DNA of 64,000 bases from Bryobacterales bacterium (GTDB lineage: Bacteria > Acidobacteriota > Terriglobia > Bryobacterales > Bryobacteraceae), in contig JAHCHD010000006.1 of the NCBI GenBank assembly GCA_026129915.1, positions 1 to 64,000 of the forward strand. Direction: 5' to 3'. Below, one piece after another: positions 58,303 to 60,772 of the stretch; position 1 is the first letter of the stretch, and each line of letters begins with the position of its first letter. A program made the position numbers and the translations under genes. A model generated the notes under the pieces. It had not been told where the DNA came from, made no database searches, and saw only the letters and a program-made list of their open reading frames with translations.

Positions 58303-58788
58303 GGAAAAGGTCCTCCCGCGGAGAAAATTTCAGTCGCGTGAGTATAGCGGCGCGGGAGGATGGAGTCTGAAATTGCGGGGCGTATGTGGTTGGAAGAAAA
58401 AGGGATGTTTTTGGGGAACTGGCGGGAACTGGGGTTTAGGGGTTAGGGTCTAGGGGTTAGGAGTCGCATTCACCAAGTGGGGCGAAGGCGACGTGGACTC
58501 GCTGGCGCGAGGCGGGTTGCTGGGGTGGCGGGCTCGGGGCCTACGGGTGGCACCGCAGAGTCACCTGATTACGAGACCTAACGAGACCTGATTACGAGAC
58601 CCGAAGAGCTAAATGCGGCCCCTCCCTCCACGCCTTGGCAGCCCTCTCTGGAAAAACCGGGTTCGTCACGCTGGCGCGATACCCAGGCACCCGCTTCCGC
58701 TTCACACCTGTAAACTTCCGCGCTGTAGTACCAATGACATGCGAATTGCCTGGCGTTTTGTGCGGAAATCCCTACAATTGGGAGTGTG
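58303..58788. other. Intergenic region with short direct repeats
   Basis: About 490 bp without a supported gene. It contains a telomere-like duplication (TAGGGGTTAGG, twice, 58437-58461) and an exact 15-bp direct repeat CCTGATTACGAGACC at 58564-58578 and 58587-58601. A possible -10 box TACAAT at 58773-58778 lies just before the phase-variable start region. Confidence 0.55.
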
Positions 58789-58823
58789 ATGTCTATTTCA
58801 GACTATACGATCCCGGTTATGAA

Positions 58824-58857
58824 CTCTCTCTCTCTCTCTCTCTCTCTCTCTCTCTCT
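58824..58857 (+). repeat. (CT)17 dinucleotide microsatellite at the start of the lipase gene
   Basis: Seventeen uninterrupted CT units lie directly after ATG-AAC (58819-58824) and before the codons of a signal peptide. Gain of one unit or loss of two would join the frame of the ATGs at 58789 and 58819 with the lipase frame. Uninterrupted dinucleotide tracts of this length are prone to slipped-strand mispairing. Confidence 0.9.
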
Positions 58858-58912
58858 GCGATCGTGGGCAAGAGCGCTCCTGTGCCCGGCGGCAGGGCTT
58901 GCGCTTGGCGTC

Positions 58913-60772
58913 GTGCTCCTGACAACCGTAACAGTAATCGCACAACCAACGCTTCCACCGCCTTATCAACGGGATGGCGAGATCTATTTCCAGGAGGATT
59001 ATGGTAACCGAGAGCCATTCTCCTCGAGCGACTCGTCCTACGCTGCCGGCTGCCTCCAAAGCTACAGCCGTATAGAGTACATCGGCAAGAACCGGCGCAC
59101 CGTCGGTTCCGGGCTCCTGAATAAGACGGTAGATACCGATGGCAAATTGATTGGCACCGAGACTCTCATTGCCAACGGTCTTCTTGCCCGTGAAGCACAA
59201 ATTCGCGTGTCCATCTACGGCAACTGTGCAATTCATCACGAGTCGAGTGCACGCGTCTACGTGAATGAAGAATCGGAGGCATGCAAGACGACGGAGGACA
59301 TTCAGTTCCCCGTAGCTCCGATCGAAACGCAGCCGGAGCACATACTTCGATTCGACGCGGCGTGCCTGCGTTACGGCGTCCGGGACAGCGAAGAGGCGGC
59401 GGAGCCGACACCAAAAGAGAACCGGATCATCCTCGCCCCGGTTTCGCCGCCTACGATAGACTGCTTCCCTAACTGCCCCGACATTCCGCCCACCTCAGCC
59501 GAAGTGGCGCTCAAAGGGGATACGGCTTGGTGGGATGAGCAGTTCCTGCCATCCAGCTTCCGTGACTATCGACTGGAGTACGGCGAAGAACGAGCGCGTC
59601 GCGAGGCACACCTGCACGCCATGATCGTCGAGTTCGAATCCCTCGCCCCCATCGCGCTGGTGCATGGGTATACGAGTTCCGTGGAGTTCTGGAACACACA
59701 CGACAACAGCGGCGCTAATCCTGAGACAGAATCCGACCGTTTCATCGCGCCTCTTGATGAACGGCGGGTTGGCTACGGACTCATCAGCACGAAGAACGCG
59801 TCTGGCCAGCCCAGCACGAATCGGTGGGACAAAAAGCCGAACATCTCGCCAGGGCCAACAGATAGGGTCGCGGAGGATCTCCAGCCGGAGCTTCGTGCCC
59901 TGGCGGACCGCTTCGGGGCCGACTACGTGAATATCGTTAGCCACAGCATGGGCGCGATCTGGTCTAGAGCCGTGATCGAGCAGCTGAAGGCAGTAGACCC
60001 GAGTGAGAACCCTCCGGGAGTGTTGTATCTAGTTTCGATGTCGCCAATGCATCACGGGTCGGTCTTTGCCGATTTGCGCGATGTCTACGCGTGGAAGAAT
60101 ATCCCAAAGTACTTCCTCTTCGGCGATACAGGACAGGGGGGCTTTCCCTTCTGGAAGCGGATGCTCACCAGGATAGTTGGGCGGGCAGACGCTTCGCTGC
60201 CCGATGCCACCACATGGAAGGCGGCGGAGTTCAATCAACGACAAGAATTGCCCGAAGAATTCCGCGTGAAGGGCGTGAAGACCCAACTCAGCAAGTGGAC
60301 CTTGGCCAACAGCTTCAATGAAAACGAAAATTGCGATGCCGAAAACGTTGACAAGGTGGAGTGCGGCGACAATCCAGGTGATCCCGACGAGTGCAAACGA
60401 CAGCGCAAACGCAAACTTGGATTCGATCTCTCACAGGTCACGAATCAAGAACGGTCAAACACCCTTCAGCGGCTCCAGCGTGTGAATATCAGCCAGACTC
60501 CTTCGGGAAAGTACTCTGCGGAATTCATCACCCAACCGTTCCCCGCCGCGCCGTCCACAGCCGGCTGCCCCCAGGGCCGCTACCCGCTGAATGATTTCAC
60601 TCTCCGAACGGAGAACATGTTTTTCCGGCACTTCAATGTGTTACCCGGGACCGGGGGACGTCCTTACCGGTTTGCCAACCATTCGATGGTAGGGCATCGC
60701 TCTATCGCGGAAGAATTGCTGGTTTTCCCATTTCGCGCTGCGGAACAGAGCACCCTGAAGGGGAACCAATGA
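58913..60772 (+). CDS. Secreted lipase-like alpha/beta-hydrolase, probably phase-variable
   Basis: A 619-residue frame from a GTG at 58913, but the native N-terminus is upstream: the same frame before it reads LRSWARALLCPAAGLALGVVLLTTVTVIAQP, a good signal peptide with no start codon, running straight into the (CT)17 tract. ATGs at 58789 (GGGAG nearby) and 58819 are in another frame and would need one CT more or two fewer. The mature protein has LAPIALVHGYTSSVEFWN (oxyanion loop), YVNIVSHSMGAIWSRAVIEQL (GxSxG nucleophile elbow) and YLVSMSPMHHGSVFADL, as in PGAP1-like and triacylglycerol lipases. The N-terminal 200 residues are an unrecognised beta-rich, Cys-containing domain. Its stop overlaps the next start (ATGA). 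Confidence 0.75.
   Translation: MLLTTVTVIAQPTLPPPYQRDGEIYFQEDYGNREPFSSSDSSYAAGCLQSYSRIEYIGKNRRTVGSGLLNKTVDTDGKLIGTETLIANGLLAREAQIRVSIYGNCAIHHESSARVYVNEESEACKTTEDIQFPVAPIETQPEHILRFDAACLRYGVRDSEEAAEPTPKENRIILAPVSPPTIDCFPNCPDIPPTSAEVALKGDTAWWDEQFLPSSFRDYRLEYGEERARREAHLHAMIVEFESLAPIALVHGYTSSVEFWNTHDNSGANPETESDRFIAPLDERRVGYGLISTKNASGQPSTNRWDKKPNISPGPTDRVAEDLQPELRALADRFGADYVNIVSHSMGAIWSRAVIEQLKAVDPSENPPGVLYLVSMSPMHHGSVFADLRDVYAWKNIPKYFLFGDTGQGGFPFWKRMLTRIVGRADASLPDATTWKAAEFNQRQELPEEFRVKGVKTQLSKWTLANSFNENENCDAENVDKVECGDNPGDPDECKRQRKRKLGFDLSQVTNQERSNTLQRLQRVNISQTPSGKYSAEFITQPFPAAPSTAGCPQGRYPLNDFTLRTENMFFRHFNVLPGTGGRPYRFANHSMVGHRSIAEELLVFPFRAAEQSTLKGNQ

Follow-up and report, generated by a model that had tools for sequence, protein, structure and literature searches.

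Organization of the locus

The window, that is, the whole stretch of 64,000 nucleotides analysed here, carries three overlapping genes for predicted exported proteins near its end. The first encodes a lipase-like hydrolase, and a (CT)17 simple sequence repeat lies between its signal-peptide coding stretch and the nearest conserved start codon. The features are listed in Table 1. Signal peptides were judged by eye.

Table 1. Features of the hydrolase locus and the genes behind it, with positions in the window
Feature	Position	Strand	Remark
TACAAT, tentative candidate -10 element	58773..58778	+	aligned sites in two same-genus homologues are TAAGAT and TAGGAT
ATG, alternative upstream start in the frame of ATG 58819	58789..58791	+	GGGAG four bases 5'
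ATG, most likely start of the switchable gene	58819..58821	+	ATGA kept in three aligned homologues, directly before the tract
TGA closing the hydrolase frame 5' of the tract	58820..58822	+	overlaps ATG 58819
(CT)17 simple sequence repeat, proposed switch	58824-58857	+	5 nt after ATG 58819
Signal-peptide coding stretch behind the tract, RSWARALLCPAAGLALGVVLLTTVTVIA	58859..58942	+	predicted cut before Gln, cut site by eye
Lipase-like alpha/beta-hydrolase frame, 637 codons and stop	58859..60772	+	out of frame with ATG 58819 at 17 units
GTG, first possible start within the hydrolase frame	58913..58915	+	would halve the signal peptide
Gene 2, exported 261-aa protein	60769..61554	+	start shares ATGA with the hydrolase stop
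Gene 3, large exported protein	61536..63998	+	starts (ATG 61536) before gene 2 ends; extends beyond the window

No stop interrupts the hydrolase frame between the tract and its stop codon at 60770-60772. The frame is +1 relative to ATGs 58789 and 58819, which share one frame. A previous sequence-only reading had counted 17 CT units at the gene start, and this count is exact. It had also placed the two ATGs at once before the tract. Both do precede the tract, but at distances of 35 nt (58789) and 5 nt (58819), and it is 58819 that is conserved in homologues, whereas 58789 is not conserved there as an in-frame start. The claim that the hydrolase has no start of its own before the tract agrees with the TGA at 58820, which closes its frame upstream. 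Register calculation likewise bears out that one CT more or two fewer would fuse the frames: the window tract is OFF at 17 units, and fusion with the hydrolase occurs at 15 or 18 units. In any frame, (CT)17 reads as a Ser-Leu repeat.

Within the hydrolase frame, GTG 58913 is the first ATG, GTG or TTG codon. It falls within the signal peptide's hydrophobic core, and no Shine-Dalgarno-like sequence is found 5' of it. No clear Shine-Dalgarno sequence precedes ATG 58819, and a scan with the sigma-70 consensus found no full promoter upstream of the gene.

The length of the tract is far beyond chance. CT runs of 12 bases were absent from 100 dinucleotide shuffles of the window. The window holds no other dinucleotide run of at least 6 units and no homopolymer of at least 8, and no second (CT)≥8 tract occurs in the 5.28 Mb genome. 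The source genome is a fragmented metagenome-assembled genome (MAG) with 333 contigs and 84.9% completeness, and its consensus could misstate the tract length by one unit.

Repeats of other kinds are also seen in the window. Short imperfect repeats cluster upstream of the operon at 58414-58601, with GGGGTTA units at 58432-58461 and ACCTGATTACGAG units at 58563-58601. At 36812-36986, an array contains several consecutive copies of 9-base GTCGGATNN-like units.

The hydrolase and the genes behind it

The sequence-only reading had proposed a hydrolase of about 600 residues. The frame has 637 codons, and sequence profiles back a lipase-like alpha/beta hydrolase. Residues HG (269-270), Ser363 in SHSMG (codon 59945) and His608 (codon 60680) are invariant in an alignment of four homologues. 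By motif, H269-G270 is the oxyanion HG, S363 lies in the nucleophile elbow, and H608 is the catalytic His. A profile of the four homologues matched bacterial triacylglycerol lipases in the PDB (E 7e-6) over about 120 residues of the nucleophile region. The sub-threshold Pfam matches of the hydrolase are mostly alpha/beta hydrolases, esterases and lipases, and no Pfam or NCBIfam family scored above its cut-off for any of the three window proteins. AlphaFold on the four-row alignment gave a pLDDT of 39, too poor for use. These motifs and profiles support a lipase-like hydrolase. The protein resembles Family I / class 2 lipases (PDB 1qge, 1cvl, 1hqd) in the profile match around the nucleophile, the HG, the GxSxG-like SHSMG and the late invariant His. 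It differs from them in its large extra N- and C-terminal parts; the profile match is confined to about 120 residues, and the Pfam matches lie below the curated cut-offs.

The N-termini of genes 2 and 3 also resemble signal peptides. Their products are 31% and 35% identical, respectively, to their positional counterparts in L010, a related locus described below. Since both genes have homologues at the same place, the order of the three genes is conserved. The product of gene 3 has a sub-threshold match to a choice-of-anchor X domain.

The tract in homologous hydrolase genes

Clear homologues of the hydrolase were found among 101 relatives in two MAGs of the same genus only, Bryobacterales SJ57 (G004, locus L010) and SJ214 (G003, loci L011 and L012). 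A scan of the genome contigs with the single hydrolase protein found nothing, and an alignment-based scan found only the same two MAGs. In other genera, distant hydrolases are similar mainly around the nucleophile.

The start regions of the window gene, L010 and L012 align, and the ATGA is conserved. In L010 the start reads ATGACGAG(CT)9TTGAG, with the tract directly after the equivalent ATGA. The hydrolase frame there is closed by the TGA of this ATGA and is OFF at 9 units; it would be ON at 7 or 10. The basic n-region and hydrophobic core of the window signal peptide are present in L010 as well. The start of L012 reads ATGAGCAGT(TC)4T, a shortened remnant that is out of frame with the hydrolase. 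L011, the second SJ214 hydrolase, has a different N-terminus without a tract. The sequence-only reading had suggested, as a check, looking for the tract at this position in homologues; it is there, with differing lengths (17, 9 and a remnant). As judged from these alignments, the repeat stayed in place while the protein of L010 diverged to about 41-43% identity and the tract changed in length.

The hydrolase start in SJ214 is also an assembly branch point (L151, L152, L153; G003:C299, C272, C207). Two upstream contigs that are 93% identical have exactly 110 bases in common with the beginning of C207; the upstream region therefore exists as two or more copies or alleles.

The same layout in unrelated genes

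The layout of the window gene recurs in unrelated genes for exported proteins within the same bacterial family. Ten (CT)≥10 tracts occur in nine of the 257 genomes of the order. Five of them lie at the starts of large exported-protein frames, namely in the window, twice in G025, in G184 and in G263. The two G025 genes begin with ATGGCTCGT(CT)12 and ATGCGATTCGT(CT)18 and are paralogues at 53% identity. A relative of this pair in G017 has AGGAGG, ATG, CGACCGT and then (CT)7. Clear Shine-Dalgarno sequences stand before the ATG in the (CT)18 gene of G025 (GGAGG) and in G017 (AGGAGG); the (CT)12 gene has GGAG there. The G184 gene starts with ATGT(CT)23; its G171 ortholog, about 80% identical, carries (CT)6 together with a CA run. 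The G263 gene starts with ATGTCCATGAAATCCC(CT)11 and has a single distant paralogue in its genus, 38% identical over part of its length. Tract-free homologues in the same protein family (L082, L084, L086) have ordinary in-frame starts. The ordered pattern of a Shine-Dalgarno-like AGG, an ATG and (CT)7 was found in three genomes (G017, G025, G263), and the reversed control pattern in none.

To score a tract as start-linked, it had to lie at the start of a frame of 200 or more codons, for which the null rate is 8%. On the CT strand, five of the ten tracts in the 257 genomes scored (P = 6e-4), compared with one of ten on the AG strand. A stricter version that adds a hydrophobic stretch behind the tract gave two of ten, a weak enrichment (P = 0.03). 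It yields less partly because the hydrophobic core of some genes is formed by the Ser-Leu repeat. Elsewhere in the phylum, outside the family and order, CT tracts were not significantly enriched at gene starts. Tracts at signal-peptide starts do occur there: L094 (G356:C194) is in frame with 11 units and L099 (G483:C111) is out of frame with 15. In the phylum-wide survey, CT tracts also turned up in other settings, among them coding Arg-Glu repeats, and a CT tract by itself is thus not diagnostic.

Several further tracts came to light. CT tracts at signal-peptide starts outside the order are also seen at L095 (G583:C157), L098 (G096:C15) and L109 (G450:C65), which are ambiguous or have no clear start. 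One genus of the phylum (family f57, L101-L106; G363, G442, G458, G543, G614, G663) has several CT/AG tracts of up to 37 units, and several of these lie within frames that read as Arg-Glu repeats, such as a 1006-codon frame in G458. At L091 (G524:C1:1068862), (AG)11 is located shortly 5' of the ATG of a signal-peptide gene and could be a promoter or leader type of switch. The 257 genomes of the order contain one (AC)≥10 tract, an (AC)12 (L117, G112:C54:12121-12144, minus strand). It immediately follows a TTG start that has GGAG 5' of it, stands before a signal peptide, out of frame, and is a candidate switch with another repeat unit.

Frame states and constraint

Of the nine family genes with a tract, two are ON (G184, G171) and seven are OFF (G000, G004, G003, G025 twice, G017, G263). 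The probability of two or fewer in frame is 0.38 if each is in frame with probability 1/3 and about 3e-8 at 0.95, for genes that are not all independent. Two in nine fits what free slippage predicts, unlike an ordinary coding repeat.

The frames behind the tracts are open and constrained. At this composition, 637 stop-free codons in a row would have a probability of about 1e-10. The two OFF hydrolases differ at 270 first, 232 second and 400 third codon positions, an excess at the third position. For G184 and G171, dN is 0.10 and dS is 0.54, with dN/dS about 0.19. A decayed or never-used frame would not show such constraint, and by these measures the frames behind the tracts are maintained.

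A proposed phase-variable switch

We propose that the window hydrolase is a translational contingency gene, phase-variable through CT slippage at its start, and put the probability of this reading at about 0.7. As in known contingency loci, a long tandem repeat with a unit that is not a multiple of three lies near a start codon, and gain or loss of units would bring an intact open reading frame into frame. Unit number also varies at a conserved place (17/9/remnant; 12/18/7; 23/6), here between species with one genome per species. The contingency-locus layout of the sequence-only reading has thereby gained support: the tract recurs in relatives, the frame states are mixed, and the frames behind the tract are maintained.

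In this mechanism, slipped-strand mispairing at replication would add or remove CT units, and a clone would hold both ON and OFF cells. The ON frame would join the start codon to the signal peptide, with the Ser-Leu repeat in its N-terminal region, and the enzyme would be exported. The OFF frame would end early. Gene 2 begins at the stop codon of the hydrolase, and premature termination in OFF cells would for this reason probably lower its expression, and perhaps that of gene 3, via polarity or lost coupling. Co-switching of genes 2 and 3 is likely, judging from the overlapping genes and the conserved order. The assembly would have caught the genome in the OFF state.

The alternative with the most weight, though unlikely, is an incidental microsatellite. 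Ser-Leu-rich signal peptides would tolerate CT runs, and frameshift alleles would be an unselected by-product of slippage. It is consistent with the genes in which the repeat falls within the hydrophobic core, where Ser-Leu is tolerated, with start-linked tracts on the CT strand, as it predicts, with the position of the order's single (AC)12 tract, which is likewise at a signal-peptide start, and with the rarity of the tracts, one or two per genome. The tracts of the window and L010, however, precede the basic n-region and lie outside the core, and the tract has been kept across about 41% protein identity. Most tract genes are out of frame yet intact and constrained, which drift after loss would not preserve. 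The least probable of the alternatives is that the locus is a decaying pseudogene broken once at the repeat. That the hydrolase is out of frame as assembled fits such decay, but its long open frame, its conserved catalytic residues and an OFF layout shared by several homologues with different tract lengths do not.

A miscount in the assembly, with a true tract of 18 (or 15) units and a gene that is simply in frame, carries a small probability. The MAG is fragmented, CT runs stutter in PCR, and among the seven OFF genes four lack a single unit. The rest would need -1 or +2 units, hence there is no uniform bias; ordinary reads span the 34 bases, and independent MAGs are also OFF. It is distinctly improbable that the tract is 5' untranslated and that all cells translate from GTG 58913 or a rare start. 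This GTG is in frame, and L010 has a TTG at a comparable place. Both codons, however, lie inside the hydrophobic core, would drop the basic n-region and have no Shine-Dalgarno sequence, and the residues upstream of them align between the homologues. Moreover, G025b and G017 have a clear Shine-Dalgarno sequence at the ATG before the tract. Slightly less credible still is synthesis of the enzyme from the OFF allele by programmed frameshifting or transcriptional slippage on the tract. Dinucleotide runs can be slippery for polymerase and several relatives are out of frame, but different genes would need different shifts (+1/-2 or -1/+2 units), a fixed slippery heptamer is lacking, and the genes of two relatives are already in frame.

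For the translational contingency gene, the conservation of the tract and the frames kept behind OFF alleles favour a selected switch over a tolerated by-product. A broader proposal is that Bryobacterales use CT slippage in signal-peptide regions as general bet-hedging for secreted and surface proteins. Such switches would have arisen repeatedly in unrelated genes and, in bacteria without an animal host, would form a free-living phasome. We regard this extension as tentative, with odds a little short of even.

Comparison with known systems

The recurrence of CT runs at the same spot suggests that a kind of switching most familiar from bacteria that live in hosts has a place in soil as well, a habitat inferred from lineage only. 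Long simple repeats in bacteria are said to accompany dependence on a eukaryotic host, according to Mrazek 2007 as cited in PMC4060949. A 2025 review considers that the host link of repeats may reflect biased databases and points to soil as a gap in knowledge (PMC11868660). The window locus is of interest because free-living examples are this stated gap (PMC11868660). If the switch is real, contingency switching would be a strategy outside hosts too, for example in the control of diffusible public goods or of surface exposure to phage and predators. The open-access literature searched, which was not a full literature search, contained no report of such a switch in Acidobacteriota.

The contingency loci of Neisseria, Haemophilus and Campylobacter are alike in that the reading frame of a surface or exported gene is switched by a non-triplet repeat near its beginning. 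These bacteria have many such loci, mostly with homopolymers or tetranucleotides, whereas here there are one or two CT tracts per genome.

A closer parallel is found in the Hop genes of H. pylori. Among them, babB and hopZ have CT repeats in the signal-peptide part. In oipA, too, a CT tract lies in the signal-peptide part and the unit number sets the frame of the mature protein (PMC10564699); the same position and a frame decided by unit number are described for sabA (PMC2715451). The window gene is similar in that a CT tract in the signal-peptide region would control the frame. Its product, however, is a secreted lipase-like hydrolase and not a Hop barrel: the window protein has no Pfam or NCBIfam match to the Hop outer membrane barrel and has hydrolase motifs instead. 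It belongs to the Acidobacteriota and is presumed to be free-living. Furthermore, the window tract precedes a complete n-region, and the switching is proposed here from sequence alone. The type of switch is thus already known; as far as the open-access literature searched shows, its phylum, its habitat and its secreted-enzyme cargo are new.
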